Positions 1-5,979 of a stretch of 5,979 bases of DNA are shown here, in pieces. Numbering within the stretch: the stretch's first letter is position 1; each line of letters opens with the position of its first letter. The position numbers and the translations under genes are program-made. Source of the DNA: Thermoplasmata archaeon (GTDB lineage: Archaea; Thermoplasmatota; Thermoplasmata; SG8-5; JAGLSY01); NCBI GenBank assembly GCA_023137005.1, contig JAGLQE010000014.1:1-5979 (forward strand), written 5' to 3'. Under the pieces are notes generated by a model. It was not told the origin of the DNA, ran no database searches, and was given only the letters and a program-made list of their open reading frames with translations.

Positions 1-684
1 TGCTCGATGTGTATCGAAGCACCGAAGATGGTGGATGCTGGAAGGCACCAAAATATCGAACTCCTGACATACTCTGAGCTTGTCTCAGTGGAGGGGGAGG
101 ATGGGAACTTCCATGCCAAGATATTGAAGAAACCCAGGTCCGTGGATGTGGACAAGTGTACTGGCTGCGGTCTCTGTACTGAGAACTGCCCCATCATGCT
201 GAAGATCCAGATTCCTGAGAAGATACCTGAGCCAGAGGTGCGGGATAAGGAGCTCATTGATGGTTTGGTCTCCAACCACTCCAACCTTCCTAACCCCATC
301 ATCCAGATATTACTGGATGTCAATAACCAATACTCTTATCTGCCCAGGGATGTGCTGGAATACCTGGCCTTCAAAATGGAAATGCCCTTTGCCGAGATAT
401 ATAAGATCGTGACATTCTACAAGTCATTCAGCCTGGAGAAGCGCGGCAAGTATCATATCAAGGTCTGCATGGGAACAGCATGCCATGTGAGGGGTGCAAG
501 AAGCATCAGGGAAAGTATCCAGACCAGGATCGCAGGTTGCGAAGATGGATTGTTCTCCTATGAAACAGTCAACTGCCTGGGAACCTGTGCTATCGGGCCT
601 GTTATGATGATAAATGAAGAGATCCATGGTAATCTGGACGGCGACAAGGTTGACAAGGTAATAACCAAACTGGAGGGAGCTTAA
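1..684 (+). CDS. nuoE: HdrA segment fused to NuoE-type [2Fe-2S] subunit, 5'-partial
   Basis: The frame is open at the left edge, so the true start lies upstream; the ATG at position 7 is internal. Counting the codon at position 1 as residue 1, residues 1-64 match HdrA: the CSMC motif with following APKMV and GRHQNIELLTYSE, then a [4Fe-4S] motif C53-x2-C56-x2-C59-x3-C63-P. After a short proline-rich linker (65-79), residues 80-227 form a NuoE / 24-kDa-type thioredoxin-fold domain with all four [2Fe-2S] ligands, C156-x4-C161 and C192-x3-C196, and the usual helical N-terminus (NNQYSYLP, IVTFYKSF). In the family this domain passes electrons to or from the FMN subunit, which is the next gene. The HdrA part stops where a complete HdrA would continue, and the missing continuation appears in the third gene. 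Presumably cytoplasmic; no membrane segment is visible. The NuoE assignment is firm, and the HdrA origin of the N-terminus rests on motif recognition. Whether an FAD Rossmann motif lies upstream cannot be seen. Confidence 0.93.
   Translation, partial: CSMCIEAPKMVDAGRHQNIELLTYSELVSVEGEDGNFHAKILKKPRSVDVDKCTGCGLCTENCPIMLKIQIPEKIPEPEVRDKELIDGLVSNHSNLPNPIIQILLDVNNQYSYLPRDVLEYLAFKMEMPFAEIYKIVTFYKSFSLEKRGKYHIKVCMGTACHVRGARSIRESIQTRIAGCEDGLFSYETVNCLGTCAIGPVMMINEEIHGNLDGDKVDKVITKLEGA
672..679 (+). promoter_or_regulatory. Ribosome binding site of the nuoF-like gene
   Basis: The purine-rich stretch GGAGGGAG lies inside the last codons of the nuoE-like gene, 4 bases before the ATG at 684. It is a strong Shine-Dalgarno match and supports 684 as the start rather than the second ATG at 693. 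The stop and start codons share one base (TAATG), so translation of the two subunits is probably coupled. Confidence 0.7.
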
Positions 685-2549
685 TGAACCGAATGAACAG
701 CCCCGAAGACCTGAACAAGCTTAGAGATGAACTTGGCAAGGTCCAGACAAAGCCCATAGTCATCGTTGGCTCGGGAACCTGTGGTGAGGCCCAGGGTAGC
801 AAGGCAGTTCTGGCAGCCTTCCGTGAGGAGATGGACAAGAAGGGATTGACAGACAAGATAGACCTTCGTGAGTCCGGTTGTCTGGGATTCTGTGAGATAG
901 AGCCCATCGTGGTCTTCAGAAAGGATGACAAGCCTGGCATTCTCTACCAGAGGGTGAAGTCCGCCAGTGTTGAGGAGATAGTCAATGAGACCCTGGTCAA
1001 TGGAAAGCCAGTGGAGAAGTTCCTCTACACTGACAAGGCCACCAAGGAAAAGGTCACCTATGAGAATGAGAATCCATATTACAAGAAGCAGATGAGAAAT
1101 CTTCTGGCCAACAATATCGAGATAGACCCAACCCAGATAGAGGATTATATCAAGATTGGGGGATACACTGCCCTCCAGAAGGCCATCAAATCCAAGCCTG
1201 AAGAGATCGTGGAATCCATCAAGCAATCTGGTCTCAGAGGCCGTGGCGGCGGTGGTTTCCCGACCGGAAGGAAATGGGACACTGCCATGAAGTTCGAGGC
1301 AGAGAAGAAGTACGTCATCTGCAATGCTGATGAGGGTGATCCTGGAGCCTATATGGACCGAAATGTCCTGGAAAGCAACCCCCACAGTGTTGTCGAGGGA
1401 ATGATAATCGGCGCTTATGCGGTTGGCTCCAATTATGGTTATATTTACGTGAGAGCGGAGTACCCACTGGCCATCAAGCACTTCTCCATTGCATTGGAAA
1501 AAGCGCGTGAGATGGGCCTCCTGGGCAAGAACATTCTCGGAAGCGGATTTGACTTTGATATCGAGATATACCAGGGAGGGGGAGCTTTTGTTTGCGGAGA
1601 ATCCTCAGCCCTTATCCAGTCCATTGAAGGAAAGGTGGGCGAGCCAAGAGCCAAGCACATCCATGCCACAGAGCAGGGATTATGGGGCTACCCCACGGTA
1701 CTCAACAATGTCGAGACCTGGGCCAATGTCACGCTCATAATCAACAAGGGCGCGGAGTGGTATTCCCAGATAGGTACCGAGAAGAGCAAGGGAACTAAAA
1801 TTTTCTCTCTTGTGGGCAAGATAAACAATACTGGCCTGGTGGAGGTTCCCATGGGAATGACCATCAAGGAGATAGTTCTCGATATCGGCGGCGGAACACC
1901 AAAAGGCAAGGAGTTCAAGGCCATTCAGACCGGTGGACCATCTGGCGGATGCATACCTGCCTCCATGACCGACCTACCAATTGACTTTGACGAGTTGACC
2001 CGTGTGGGATCCATGATGGGGTCTGGTGGAATGATCGTCATGGACGAGGACACCTGCATGGTGGACCTGGCCAAGTATTTCATTGATTTCAATCTGGACG
2101 AATCCTGTGGAAAATGCTCCTCCTGCAGGGAGGGGAATGCCCGGCTTCTGGAGATCCTGGAAGATATCTGTGATGGAAAGGCCGAGATGAAGGACCTGGA
2201 ACTCTTGGAGGAACTGGCAGAATATGTGAAAGAAGCTTCCTTGTGCGGTCTTGGAAAAACTGCGCCCAATCCAGTTTTGTCCACTTTGCAATACTTCAAG
2301 GACGAGTATCTGGCCCATATCGAAAATCAGGAATGCCCGGCCGGTGTGTGCAAGGAGCTCATATCATTCTCAATAGACACGGAAAAATGTACTGGCTGTA
2401 CTCTCTGTGCCAAGAGATGCCCGGTCAATGCGATTTCCGGCGAGACAAAGCAACCCCATTCCATCAACCTTGACATCTGTACCAAGTGCAGAACATGCTA
2501 CGAGGTGTGTAACTTTGGAGCTGTGAAGATAACCTCGGGGGGGAAATAA
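684..2549 (+). CDS. nuoF: NuoF / HydB-like NADH-oxidising FMN subunit with C-terminal 2[4Fe-4S] ferredoxin
   Basis: A complete 621-residue protein, about the length of the HydB/HndC subunits of NAD-linked bifurcating hydrogenases and longer than complex I NuoF. Residues about 20-115 are a thioredoxin-like domain with C33 (GTCG) and C66-x3-C70. Residues about 150-460 are the FMN/NADH fold, with the glycine-rich loop GLRGRGGGGFPTGRKW (183-198), CNADEGDPGAYMDR (213-226) and GGGAFVCGES (298-307). The DEGDPGA form resembles hydrogenase-linked homologues more than complex I. The [4Fe-4S] cluster site is C475-x2-C478-x2-C481 with C521. The C-terminus is a bacterial-type ferredoxin, C569-x2-C572-x2-C575-x3-C579-P and C599-x2-C602-x2-C605-x3-C609. 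By family knowledge this subunit exchanges hydride with NAD(H) and passes single electrons to the Fe-S chain. It sits between two HdrA-fusion genes, implying that NAD(H) is one substrate of the complex. The NAD versus NADP preference is inferred from the family only. Confidence 0.97.
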   Translation: MNRMNSPEDLNKLRDELGKVQTKPIVIVGSGTCGEAQGSKAVLAAFREEMDKKGLTDKIDLRESGCLGFCEIEPIVVFRKDDKPGILYQRVKSASVEEIVNETLVNGKPVEKFLYTDKATKEKVTYENENPYYKKQMRNLLANNIEIDPTQIEDYIKIGGYTALQKAIKSKPEEIVESIKQSGLRGRGGGGFPTGRKWDTAMKFEAEKKYVICNADEGDPGAYMDRNVLESNPHSVVEGMIIGAYAVGSNYGYIYVRAEYPLAIKHFSIALEKAREMGLLGKNILGSGFDFDIEIYQGGGAFVCGESSALIQSIEGKVGEPRAKHIHATEQGLWGYPTVLNNVETWANVTLIINKGAEWYSQIGTEKSKGTKIFSLVGKINNTGLVEVPMGMTIKEIVLDIGGGTPKGKEFKAIQTGGPSGGCIPASMTDLPIDFDELTRVGSMMGSGGMIVMDEDTCMVDLAKYFIDFNLDESCGKCSSCREGNARLLEILEDICDGKAEMKDLELLEELAEYVKEASLCGLGKTAPNPVLSTLQYFKDEYLAHIENQECPAGVCKELISFSIDTEKCTGCTLCAKRCPVNAISGETKQPHSINLDICTKCRTCYEVCNFGAVKITSGGK

Positions 2550-2550
2550 A

Positions 2551-5500
2551 ATGGTCAATATCGAGATAAACGGAGCAATGTACGAAGCAGAGCCTGATCA
2601 GACAGTTCTGGAAGTTGCTAAAAAGAACAGTATAATCATCCCCACCCTCTGCCATCTGGATACCCTTCCAGAATACGGTGGATGCCGGCTTTGCATGGTC
2701 GAGAGGATGGGTGATGGCTGGTCTCAGGTGACTACCGCTTGCACCCTTCCGGTCAAGGAAGGAATGAAGGTTCAAACAGATTCCGAGAAGGTCAGGAAGA
2801 GCAGGAAGATGACAATCGAACTGCTGCTGGCCCGATGCCCGGATGAGGAGGTCCTGCAGAACCTGGCCGAGGAATATGGCGTGGGAGAACTGAGGTTCAA
2901 GAAGAACGATGATAACTGCATTCTATGCGGCCTTTGTGTCAGAATGTGCCAGAGGATGGGAATCCAGGCAATTGACTTCCAGGGTCGTGGAATGGAGAAG
3001 GAACTTGGAACCCCGTACATGGAGAAATCCGATGTGTGTATAACCTGCGGGGCATGTGCCTATATATGCCCGACCACGAGATTCACCCAGACCAAGGTGG
3101 AAAGGGTGAGCGGCAATAAGCCAATTCCCGTCATGTCCGAGTTCGAGCATGGCATGGGTACCAGGAACGCTATCTACATACCATTCCCACAGGCAGTTCC
3201 GAAGATACCTGTTATCGACAAGAATATCTGCATATATTATCAGACCGGCGAGTGCAAGACCTGTGAAGAGGTCTGTGAGGCAGGGGCCATAAAGTACGAC
3301 CAGGAAGAAGAAGTTCTTGATGTTGATATTGGCTCCATCGTCATAGCCGCGGGAACAGATGTCTTCGACCCGGCCAGATCCCCGGGATACGGATATGAAC
3401 AATACAAGAATGTCATAACATCACTGGAGTTCGAGAGGATGCTGAGTGCCTCGGGACCGACTGGCGGCCACATCATGAGGCCATATGATCACAAGGACCC
3501 AAAGAAGATAGCTTTCATTCAATGTGTTGGCTCCAGGGATTGCAATACTAACCCATACTGTTCCAGTGTCTGCTGTACCTATGCTGTCAAAGAGTCGATA
3601 ATCGCCCAGGAGCACTCTCCGGGCCTGGAAGCCCACATATATGCCATGGACATCAGGACATTCGGTAAGGGCTTTGAAGAGTATAAAGAGAGGGCTGTGA
3701 ACGAATATGGCGTGAAGATCTTCAAGAACAGTCGCGTGCCCTATGTCGAGGAGCTGGAGGACGGCAGCCTGGTCATCAAGCGCGTGGAGGAAGGAAAACT
3801 AGTTGAGGAAGAGTATGACATGGTAATTCTATCAGTTGGTCTGGAGCCCTCCAAGGACTTCAAGGAACTGGCAGCCAAACTGGGTGTTGACCTGAACGAT
3901 TACGGTTTCTGCAGAACATCCACCTTCAACCCACTATCAACTTCCAAGCCAGGGATCTTCGTATCTGGTGTGTCATCATCACCAAAGGACATTCCCGAGA
4001 CCGTGGCCCAATCATCGGGTGCGGCAGCAATGGCATCCTATTCCATATCTGACCAGCGAAACACGATGGTCAGGGACAAGGATTACCCCCCAGAGCTGGA
4101 CGTTTACGGGATGAGGCCCAGGATAGGTGTGTTCGTATGTCATTGTGGAACCAATATCTCAGGAACGGTGGATGTCAAGGCCGTGGCCGAGTACGCCCGC
4201 TCATTACCGGATGTTGCCTATGCCACCGACAATGTCTACACCTGCAGCCAGGACACCCAGGAGCTTATCAAGGACCTCATCGAGGAGCATAACCTGAACA
4301 GGATAGTCATAGCATCATGCTCTCCAAGAACTCATGAACCATTGTTCCAAGATACTATCAGGGAAGCTGGTCTTAATAAGTATCTCTTCGAGATGGCGAA
4401 TATCAGGGACCAGTGCAGTTGGGTTCATCAGAAGGAGCCGGAAAAGGCCACACAGAAGTCCATGGACCTTGTGAAGATGAACGTTGCCAAGGCCCGATTG
4501 CTGGAGCCACTGGACCAGCCGACGATCGATATAACCAAGGAACTTGTGGTGATCGGCGGAGGATTGTCTGGAATGACCGCCGCCCTTGGCTCTGCCAGTA
4601 ATGGAATAAAGACCCATCTGATCGAGAAGGGGAGCGAGCTGGGAGGAAACCTGAAGGATATCCATTATCTTTTGGGCTCTGACAAGGAACCACAAGAGGC
4701 TTTGAAGGAAATTATCGCTCAAGTGGAAAAAGAGTCACTTATCGAAGTTCACATGAACAATACCGTGAAAGAAGTGAATGGTTTCGTCGGGAACTTCGAG
4801 ACCACACTGGCCGATGACACACTCATCAGTAATGGAGCAATAATCGTGGCAACCGGTGCCAAGGAATACAAGCCCAAGGAATACATGTATGGCCAGGATG
4901 AGAAGGTAGTCACCCAGAAGGAGCTGGAGGCCTCCATAGCTGGAGGAAAGGTTCCAGAGGGTACGGTGGTCATGATACAGTGTGTTGGTTCAAGGAATGA
5001 CGAGAACCCACAGTGTTCGAGGATATGCTGTACAACGGCTGTAAAGAACGCTCTAAAGATAAAGGAACTAAACCCAGAGGCCCAGATATATGTTCTGAAC
5101 AAGGATATCAGGACCTACTCCTTCAATGAGGATTATTATAGAGAGGCGGCTGAGAAGGGCGTGGTCTTCATAAGATATGATGATGAGAAGAACCCGGAGG
5201 TCACCAATGATGGAGGATTGACAGTTCGTGTGGACGACCCGATACTGGGAGAGACACTGGAGCTCAAGCCTGATACCCTCGTTCTAAGCGCGGCCACCAT
5301 ACCTCCTGAATCCAATGGGGTGCTGGCTCCGATATTGAAAGTACCGCAGAGCAAGGACGGATTCTTCCTGGAAGCCCATGTCAAGATGAGGCCAGTGGAC
5401 TTTGCCACCGAGGGTATTTTCCTTTGTGGTCTGGCACATAGTCCCAAGTCAGTCAATGAAACTATCACCCAGGCGAGTGCCGCTGCGGCAAGAGCTTCAA

Positions 5501-5787
5501 CGATACTTTCCAAACAGCAGATTCAACTGGAAGCCTGTATCTCGCAGGTGGTGGACGAAAACTGTGATGGTTGCGCTTATTGTATTGACCCCTGTCCATA
5601 TGAAGCGATTACCCTGATTGAGTATATGAAAGATGGCGCAGTCAAGAAGAGTGTAGAAGTTGATGAAACCGCCTGCAAAGGGTGTGGGGTATGTCAAGCT
5701 ACTTGCCCCAAGAAAGGCATCTTTATCAAAGGATTTAAGCTTGACCAAATATCAGCAATGGTTGAGGCTGCGCTGGGGGTAGAATAA
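2551..5787 (+). CDS. hdrA: NuoG-like [2Fe-2S]/2[4Fe-4S] module fused to HdrA C-terminal half and a second HdrA
   Basis: A complete 1078-residue protein starting one base after the nuoF stop. (a) Residues 1-75 are a plant-type [2Fe-2S] domain, C34-x10-C45-x2-C48-x15-C64. (b) Residues 118-178 hold two [4Fe-4S] motifs, C123-x2-C126-x2-C129-x3-C133 and C163-x2-C166-x2-C169-x3-C173-P. (c) From about 197 ([18 protein letters not shown]) to about 497 it is the C-terminal half of an HdrA, with C227-x7-C235-x2-C238-x3-C242 and the CVGSRD / CC cysteine patch (325-342); its N-terminal Rossmann part is absent here. (d) Residues 522-1078 are a second HdrA: N-terminal cysteine domain (C530, C532, C565, C590, C622), FAD motif GGGLSG (669-674) with E692, the CVGSRN / CC patch (811-827), and a C-terminal ferredoxin (C1005, C1008, C1011, C1015; C1042, C1045, C1048, C1052). 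In the HdrA family the FAD is the bifurcation site. H-cluster and molybdopterin domains are absent, so this is neither HydA nor a full NuoG. The last ~90 codons differ in codon use. Confidence 0.95.
3322..4041 (+). repeat. First copy of a divergent HdrA C-half repeat within the same protein
   Basis: Residues about 258-497 align by eye with residues about 762-983 of the same protein. Shared landmarks in the same order are a beta strand ending in an ATG/AAG turn (SIVIAAGTD), the FIQCVGSRD segment, NPYCSSVCC followed by A-V-K, the DIRTF segment, and a final GIFVSG-SPK segment ending in an alanine-rich helix. This is old protein-level duplication, as expected of tandem HdrA modules, and not a recent DNA repeat. 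Confidence 0.75.
4834..5499 (+). repeat. Second copy of the divergent HdrA C-half repeat
   Basis: This copy has the matching landmarks [27 protein letters not shown] followed by A-V-K, DIRTY and GIFLCG-SPK with an alanine-rich helix. It belongs to the complete second HdrA, which also has its own GxGxxG FAD motif upstream. Unlike the first copy it is not preceded by a ferredoxin insertion. Confidence 0.75.
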
Positions 5788-5794: not shown

Positions 5795-5979
5795 ATGGTT
5801 AATGAAGCTTTTGAGCCGCTGATTTTAACTTTTTGCTGTAACTGGTGTTCATACGCCGGGGCGGATTTAGCTGGTGTCTCCAGAATACAGTATCCGCCCA
5901 ATATACGCATAATCCGGGTAATGTGTTCCGGTATGGTTCACCCCAATTTAGTGATTGATGCCTTAACCAAAGGGGCTGA
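5795..5979 (+). CDS. mvhD: MvhD/FlxD-type hydrogenase iron-sulfur subunit, 3'-partial
   Basis: An open frame starts with ATG seven bases after the preceding stop and runs off the right edge after 61 codons. The visible N-terminus has the family landmarks: [18 protein letters not shown] (residues 10-27, with C14, C15 and C18) followed by [13 protein letters not shown] (38-50, with C44). MvhD is a small [2Fe-2S] protein that docks on HdrA and hands electrons between HdrA and an electron donor module such as the MvhAG hydrogenase, formate dehydrogenase or, in FlxABCD-type complexes, a flavin subunit. Its position directly after the HdrA fusion fits that role. Codon use differs from the upstream genes: four of its five leucines are TTA, while only one TTA codon was seen in the 1078-codon gene before it. 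The alternative in-frame starts would remove conserved residues, so 5795 is preferred. Confidence 0.92.

Follow-up and report, generated by a model that had tools for sequence, protein, structure and literature searches.

The inserted ferredoxin domain of ordinary HdrA has been described as passing electrons to free ferredoxin (PMC9012536). In ANME-1 and Bathyarchaeota, a GltD/NfnB-like domain is inserted in this ferredoxin domain, and it has been proposed that the inserted domain lets NAD(P)H replace free ferredoxin and that such an insertion took place twice (PMC9012536, PMC12054007). Here we describe a related but distinct arrangement in a Thermoplasmata archaeon, found on a contig of 5979 bases (JAGLQE010000014.1, C46 in our set), the whole of which is called the window below and which belongs to an incomplete genome (79% complete). 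In this locus the first flavin domain of a tandem HdrA is divided between two genes, gene 1 and gene 3, which enclose a nuoF gene (gene 2) and are fused to NuoE and to a short NuoG-like module (NuoG'), respectively. Type III HdrA (HdrA9-11) resembles the split HdrA in carrying a pyridine-nucleotide module in the same inserted ferredoxin domain (PMC12054007, PMC9012536), but type III is one continuous chain with GltD/NfnB, whereas the split HdrA has a NuoEFG' module and its HdrA domain lies in two genes.

Type II (tandem) HdrA shares with the window the presence of two flavin domains, the second with an N-terminal domain and a C-terminal ferredoxin domain, but in type II both flavin domains are complete within one chain (PMC12054007). 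A plain tandem HdrA was thus rejected for the window, where genes 1 and 3 each encode a part of the first flavin domain. The Nuo part is closest to the Bfu family, especially Bam-Bfu (PMC9304861) and the tungsten aldehyde oxidoreductase Bfu (9mqx), with which it shares a NuoF with a C-terminal double [4Fe-4S], a NuoE and a short NuoG-like BfuA. Bam-Bfu contains an HdrA-type module, and Schut et al. proposed that the Bfu core feeds it mid-potential electrons (PMC9304861). However, the accessible part of that paper mentions no HdrA split and no fusion to BfuA or BfuC, and no enzyme of this kind is among the Bfu types it lists; by analogy, the pairing of Bfu core and HdrA would be covalent in the split system. 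FlxABCD-HdrABC is likewise described as an NADH dehydrogenase that works with HdrABC. Its NADH module is a different one, and we know of no fusion in that system. No description of an HdrA split over two genes was found in the literature searched, of which coverage was partial; Appel et al. 2021 (Biochim Biophys Acta 1862:148379), a review, may bear on the question.

The divided HdrA and its joints

Four genes lie head to tail on the + strand of the window with near-zero spacing, namely gene 1, gene 2, gene 3 and the start of mvhD. Gene 1 (1..684), the 5' end of which is cut by the contig, encodes the C-terminal part of the HdrA N-half fused to NuoE, as assigned from the NCBIfam model HdrA2 (190-258), NuoE/HoxE models, Pfam PF01257 and a 290-residue copy from the same genus. 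The original prediction, that gene 1 turns from HdrA into NuoE and gene 3 from a NuoG-like protein into HdrA, proved accurate in its motifs and positions. Of the two four-cysteine motifs in the inserted ferredoxin domain, the first ([4Fe-4S]; C53, C56, C59 and C63, then a proline) occupies 157..192, the cysteines of CTGCGLCTENCP standing at nucleotides 157-189 and the proline reaching 192; it was recognised by reading the sequence and by its conservation. Joint 1, determined by alignment, is the segment 202..231, where the HdrA match has stopped and that to NuoE has not yet begun; the [2Fe-2S] thioredoxin-like NuoE domain follows at 232..681. Gene 3 (2551..5787; 1078 residues) joins the NuoG-like module, the HdrA C-half and a second HdrA unit. 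The module (2551..3090), with one [2Fe-2S] and two [4Fe-4S] four-cysteine motifs, matches residues 5-181 of 9mqx_A at nearly equal length. HdrA then resumes in the predicted place, at nucleotide ~3121-3136, joint 2 being aligned to 3121..3135 at about HdrA residue 257.

The C-half of the split flavin domain extends over 3121..4095, its end being approximate (alignment to 5odc_A 257-511; NCBIfam match to residue 497). It contains motif 2, the remaining four cysteines of the inserted ferredoxin domain (C227, C235, C238, C242; 3229..3276), supported by conservation, and two residues placed by alignment, E295 (3433..3435) opposite HdrA E356 and K347 (3589..3591) opposite HdrA K409, the latter of which contacts flavin N5 in the solved enzyme (PMC12054007). 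The second HdrA unit (4114..5784) consists of an N-terminal domain, a flavin adenine dinucleotide (FAD) domain without ferredoxin insert and a C-terminal ferredoxin domain, as supported by alignment and by the top Foldseek match, 5odh_A (template modelling score 0.75 on the target), and its presence agrees with the tandem HdrA of the original prediction. An AlphaFold model of gene 3 alone has a mean predicted local distance difference test score (pLDDT) of 83.7 and is disordered only at residues 195-218 (pLDDT <50), at and after joint 2, and at residues 533-537. Disorder at the joint is as expected when the partner chain is absent from the model, which is consistent with a shared domain and not proof of one.

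Both joints map to a single HdrA site, as had been predicted. On the NCBIfam HdrA2 model, residues 1-68 of gene 1 correspond to positions 190-258 and residues 183-497 of gene 3 to positions 246-558; against the solved HdrA 5odc_A, a complete gene 1 product of the same genus (P0001) covers residues 146-259 and gene 3 covers residues 257-511, so that one alignment ends at 259 and the other begins at 257. This point of the inserted ferredoxin domain lies after its first cysteine motif and before its second. The prediction had also assumed that the two stretches nearly adjoin in ordinary HdrA. Among 73 other HdrA chains with both stretches in the fetched loci, the gap is <=7 residues in 52 (median 3), while the other 21 carry an insert of ~500 residues of the GltD type, with no intermediate gap sizes. 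Since the joints meet and uninterrupted chains show the same adjacency, no HdrA core segment is lost or doubled; neither the overlap nor the large missing core that might have spoken against the prediction is seen in the alignment to 5odc_A.

The window copy of gene 1 starts at residue 56, and its GxGxxG motif is not visible because the contig begins inside the gene, leaving the first 55 residues outside; a search of the rest of its genome for this start returned only HdrA relatives on contigs C231 and C175. The HdrA dinucleotide-binding (Rossmann) half, the absence of which would have counted against the prediction, is nevertheless present at the start of P0001 (genome G001, contig C9), which is complete at 290 residues, contains GxGxxG and is 75% identical to the window protein over the common part. 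Conservation was counted in all 240 gene-1 and all 120 gene-3 proteins listed (120 per search), which are all different and include query and window copies. Among these listed matches, all four cysteines of motif 1 and both cysteines of the CSMC motif of gene 1 are kept in 240/240 proteins and GxGxxG in 235/240, the five exceptions being three proteins that begin too late (one of them the contig-cut window copy) and two with one altered glycine. In gene 3, all four cysteines of motif 2 and both E295 and K347 are kept in 120/120, and the E356/K409 pair to which the latter two align has been tied to stabilisation of the bifurcating flavin (PMC12054007). For the second HdrA unit, the matching lysine (K832) is kept in 112/120, and E793, a glutamate near the corresponding E position and perhaps its equivalent, in 114/120. 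Of the twelve cysteines in the NuoG-like module, seven are present in 120/120, one is replaced by serine in a single protein and the remaining four are gapped in one or two proteins; no His-Cys cluster motif was seen in the module by eye.

The split protein thus has the HdrA ferredoxin domain with its two four-cysteine motifs, but with one motif per chain, and it does not have the HdrA flavin domain in a single polypeptide. We regard it as HdrA-derived and likely HdrA-like in action, and not as ordinary HdrA, because the flavin domain spans two chains. To judge from the conserved residues, both HdrA halves are likely still working parts.

Proposed assembly and electron path

Our favoured reading, to which we give a probability of about two in three, is that the split HdrA rejoins in trans, that the two chains together make up a single FAD site and a pair of shared [4Fe-4S] clusters, and that an NAD(H)/ferredoxin unit is thereby connected to the ferredoxin port of HdrA. 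A single flavin domain common to two chains, as originally predicted, finds good support in conservation and is the best reading of the sequences, because the joints lie at one site with no loss or duplication, the second unit is present and both halves keep their cofactor residues. In the 2[4Fe-4S] ferredoxin fold, each cluster takes three cysteines from one motif and the fourth from the other. Given this ordinary fold and one motif per chain, each of the two clusters would have ligands from the products of both gene 1 and gene 3. The FAD site would likewise be composite, with gene 1 supplying the Rossmann half and gene 3 the bifurcation residues. A third cluster may also be cross-chain, through the CSMC cysteines of gene 1, because CSMC sits, by a putative residue match, where HdrA has its partner-cluster ligand; HdrA is described as having a cysteine that ligates the cluster of its dimer partner (PMC9012536), and such a partner-ligated cluster would have its place in the N-terminal domain of the second HdrA unit.

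Electrons would then run between the NuoF flavin mononucleotide (FMN) and the FAD by way of the NuoG' clusters and the split ferredoxin domain, and beyond the FAD to or from HdrBC, MvhD and their partners. What is a port for free ferredoxin in other HdrA would here become an internal wire, as the NuoEF core would handle both NAD(H) and ferredoxin; such a port logic has been published for another insert in the same ferredoxin domain (PMC12054007, PMC9012536). The direction, with NADH and ferredoxin going in or coming out, probably depends on the host. If this is true, NADH chemistry would be linked directly to electron splitting, and neither FAD nor the two clusters should be bound by an HdrA half on its own. 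The question of how bifurcating modules are wired, and whether two act in series, has a proposed case in Bam-Bfu; because the modules of the split system are covalently joined on both sides of one site, the wiring would be readable from sequence and testable.

More tentatively, the whole may be pictured as a soluble machine in which two chains contribute to the bifurcating FAD and to each of as many as three [4Fe-4S] clusters and are held together by the NADH module, with up to three bifurcating flavins (two HdrA FAD and one NuoF FMN) on one wire, and in which the ferredoxin domain serves as a general socket for at least two unrelated pyridine-nucleotide modules. The site in the ferredoxin domain looks like a recurrent socket, because GltD-type and NuoEFG' modules enter the same domain, NuoEFG' being a second kind of plug that leaves HdrA in two genes; in the chains of this set, the GltD-type insert enters ~35 residues beyond the split-HdrA joint. 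Type III HdrA itself was rejected for the window, which has no GltD-type module (Fer4_20/Pyr_redox) and has NuoE, NuoF and the NuoG-like module between its halves, in contrast to locus L008. Single-chain GltD-type HdrA of ~1400-1540 residues was observed in L008 (Fer4_20 and Pyr_redox_2 by Pfam), L009, L014, L019, L023, L032, L038, L041 and others, and all 21 GltD-type chains found here are in loci with bacterial titles, whereas the published cases, as far as the accessible text goes, are archaeal.

Alternative readings and the history of the split

Several observations weigh against the reading of an HdrA rejoined in trans or limit the support for it. The window's own gene 1 is without its start. 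The model of gene 1 alone (pLDDT 82.5) has a predicted template modelling score of 0.53 and is, because of this value, uninformative on the placing of its two domains. The structural match search is silent on the split half, since its coverage was mainly of NuoE in gene 1 and of the second HdrA unit in gene 3. The distances of the two HdrA halves are correlated (r 0.51, 16 pairs; reached by 0/5000 permutations), which speaks for a common history of the halves but is no proof of contact because the trees share species and transfer history. Window NuoF lacks the usual C-x4-C pair of the N-terminal [2Fe-2S] domain and has GSGTCGEAQGS instead. A full HdrA (650 residues), which could share the work, is encoded directly upstream in 8/14 same-phylum loci, and a shorter one (589 residues) downstream in L111. 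A separate full hdrA had been named as a point that could undo the original prediction, and it favours a reading in which the HdrA pieces are docking adaptors without a working flavin and the neighbouring full HdrA bifurcates. The gene is indeed there, but the split halves are still conserved, with the eight ferredoxin-domain cysteines and the E/K pair kept in every listed match, and in L102 hdrC-hdrB run straight into gene 1 with no other hdrA seen in the stretch; we consider docking alone unlikely. It might also be that each half pairs with a different HdrA, either the second unit of gene 3 or a separate protein, in keeping with the description of HdrA as an obligate dimer whose copies share ligands (PMC9012536) and with the several HdrA encoded side by side. 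However, each alternative partner already has both halves, so that a split half would have to displace one, and the two split halves abut and co-occur, which makes such pairing very improbable in our judgement. An assembly error or frameshift, which might be suspected in a short contig of a metagenome-assembled genome, was rejected by the recurrence of the fusion in 19 genomes; the HdrA pieces are ~2.9 kb apart in the window, and the chance of an artefact is negligible.

The history of the rejoined HdrA is a separate matter. The original prediction, of a Nuo module inserted into a tandem hdrA, stands in part: one origin of the split is not rejected by the trees of the HdrA C-half (approximately unbiased test, p 0.17), HdrA N-half (p 0.35), NuoE (p 0.42) and NuoG' (p 0.49), but NuoF, the only unfused subunit, rejects one clade (6 changes, p 1.4e-7), and the split rows lie on one side of a branch in no tree, with 3 changes in the C-half tree, 3 in the N-half tree, 2 for NuoE and 2 for NuoG'. 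A clean single insertion is not accepted as fact for these two reasons, and p >0.05 only fails to reject. In favour of insertion are the one shared site, the right polarity, the complete halves and the correlated distances of the halves; no intermediate of insertion was found. The same anatomy could have had another history, in which hdrA was broken first or the fusions arose apart and Nuo genes joined later, perhaps more than once. The NuoF result fits such a course, as do the three changes of the C-half tree, in which the window's group is placed beside intact tandem HdrA of other archaea, and the presence of five genes between nuoF and gene 3 in L004. On the other side stand the four trees that allow one origin, the two fusions at one site with the polarity expected from insertion, and the result of scanning the fetched loci for lone HdrA halves: 13 chains away from locus edges (11 N-half, 2 C-half) were found, and the five examined, all broken elsewhere, are not lone halves of the split kind because an in-frame TGA interrupts them at the CSMC motif. 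We hold this other course to be possible but the less likely one. Most likely, a nuoEFG' cassette entered a tandem hdrA gene and nuoF was exchanged later, the insertion being plausible and unproven; exchange of the free NuoF after one insertion and several insertions or losses both fit the trees.

For these comparisons, alignment A1 held 70 of the 120 gene-1 matches and A2 held 56 of the 120 gene-3 matches plus the window. The C-half tree used 8 of the 21 GltD-type rows; another 11 rows of this type were kept out of the split set, and the 5 of them that were rechecked all matched the GltD query. Three contig-cut HdrA rows were excluded from the N-half set, and the rows of the NuoF tree were made unique (38). 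In L021, L029, L037, L053 and L060, the in-frame TGA of hdrA falls exactly at the CSMC cysteine position and perhaps encodes selenocysteine, and the eight more lone chains may be alike.

Distribution, operon context and neighbouring genes

The split family is present in archaea and in several bacterial phyla. Judged by source names and record titles, from which all group names are taken, its hosts include Thermoplasmata, Euryarchaeota, Actinomycetota (Hydromicrobium), Stahlbacteria/WOR-3, Spirochaetales, Planctomycetes, Chloroflexota/Dehalococcoidia, Victivallales, Aminicenantes and Thermodesulfobacteriota. The best 120 relatives of P0001 are all HdrA(N) plus NuoE, and in 25 this pair is preceded by a further match, to the N-terminal part of the second HdrA unit; a second search with a Stahlbacteria copy as query listed 120 further gene-1 relatives, none identical to the first set, and the best 120 relatives of gene 3 (query residues 1-520) all combine the NuoG-like module with HdrA. 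The family appears large, with 7858 of 8000 scored candidates matching the complete gene 1 at E <=1e-20, a number which may include plain HdrA or NuoE proteins. Within the phylum of the window, gene 1 was found at E <=1e-60 in 15 of 292 sampled genomes, the window's own included. Genome surveys may miscount such pieces, because sources name them NuoE, HdrA or FAD-dependent oxidoreductase. The longer gene-1 type to which these 25 belong, represented by P0029, P0014, P0035, P0038 and P0047 (~416-429 residues), thus carries an HdrA N-terminal domain ahead of the HdrA(N)-NuoE fusion, and P0139 and P0172 looked like gene 3 versions with a single HdrA, Pfam leaving it unsettled whether they are truncated.

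The HdrA(N)-NuoE fusion occurs in 19 genomes of the set, the window's included. In the search for related loci, 80 of 83 confirmed relatives were kept. The gene order of the window recurs elsewhere, as the original prediction had proposed should be looked for: gene 3 is downstream of gene 1 on the same strand in 18/19 loci, and the nineteenth (L104) ends inside nuoF. Adjacent genes overlap or are <=15 bases apart in 16/19 loci; in L109 the predicted nuoF frame overlaps gene 1 and the gap was not scored. The closest named locus, L002 of a Thermoplasmata archaeon, is 82% identical over the best gene 3 segment. HdrB and/or HdrC genes are upstream in 11/14 same-phylum loci (by a Pfam check of HdrB/HdrC reference proteins), and mvhD is downstream in 9/14, three others being cut short; in the window the start of mvhD, cut by the contig end, occupies 5795..5979 (Pfam FlpD, 5.4e-23). 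In the actinomycetote locus L004 (1-14900), the separated halves are followed by MvhD and NiFe-hydrogenase subunits, which suggests an H2-linked version. An FrhB/FdhB_C-family iron-sulfur protein, possibly a further redox partner, stands beside the split-HdrA operon in L090 (3468-4520), L099 (13785-14903) and L102 (8109-9152).

Gene 2 (684..2549, overlapping gene 1 by one base) encodes a NuoF/HydB/BfuB-like NADH-FMN subunit with two C-terminal [4Fe-4S] motifs, and is closest to subunits of electron-bifurcating enzymes with solved structures (9mqx, 7t2r, 9n5u). It has the NADH/FMN domain, the NuoF-type [4Fe-4S] and the two C-terminal [4Fe-4S] of BfuB, and is called Bfu-like because the four-cysteine N-terminal [2Fe-2S] of BfuB is absent; the NuoG-like module joined to HdrA in gene 3, which matches the small BfuA of 9mqx, may deliver electrons of a third substrate in the manner of BfuA. 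By a simple pattern, the four N-terminal [2Fe-2S] cysteines were found in 9/16 other split-operon NuoF; TCG forms like that of the window NuoF were observed in L101, L107, L110, L112 and L017, and the same-genus copy has the usual form. Other loci showed further combinations of Nuo genes. L116 and L118 have nuoEFG' without HdrA, followed by a protein that has no Pfam match in the part available (L118) and is a possible other partner. In L123, L124, L126 and L128, the nuoEFG operons lack HdrA and their NuoE is extended at the N-terminus by ~95 residues, with no Pfam family found for the L123 extension. In L109, L133, L135, L137 and L139, all of the same phylum as the window, NuoF is fused to a GltD-like module in frames of ~1050-1250 residues (Pfam check of L139).

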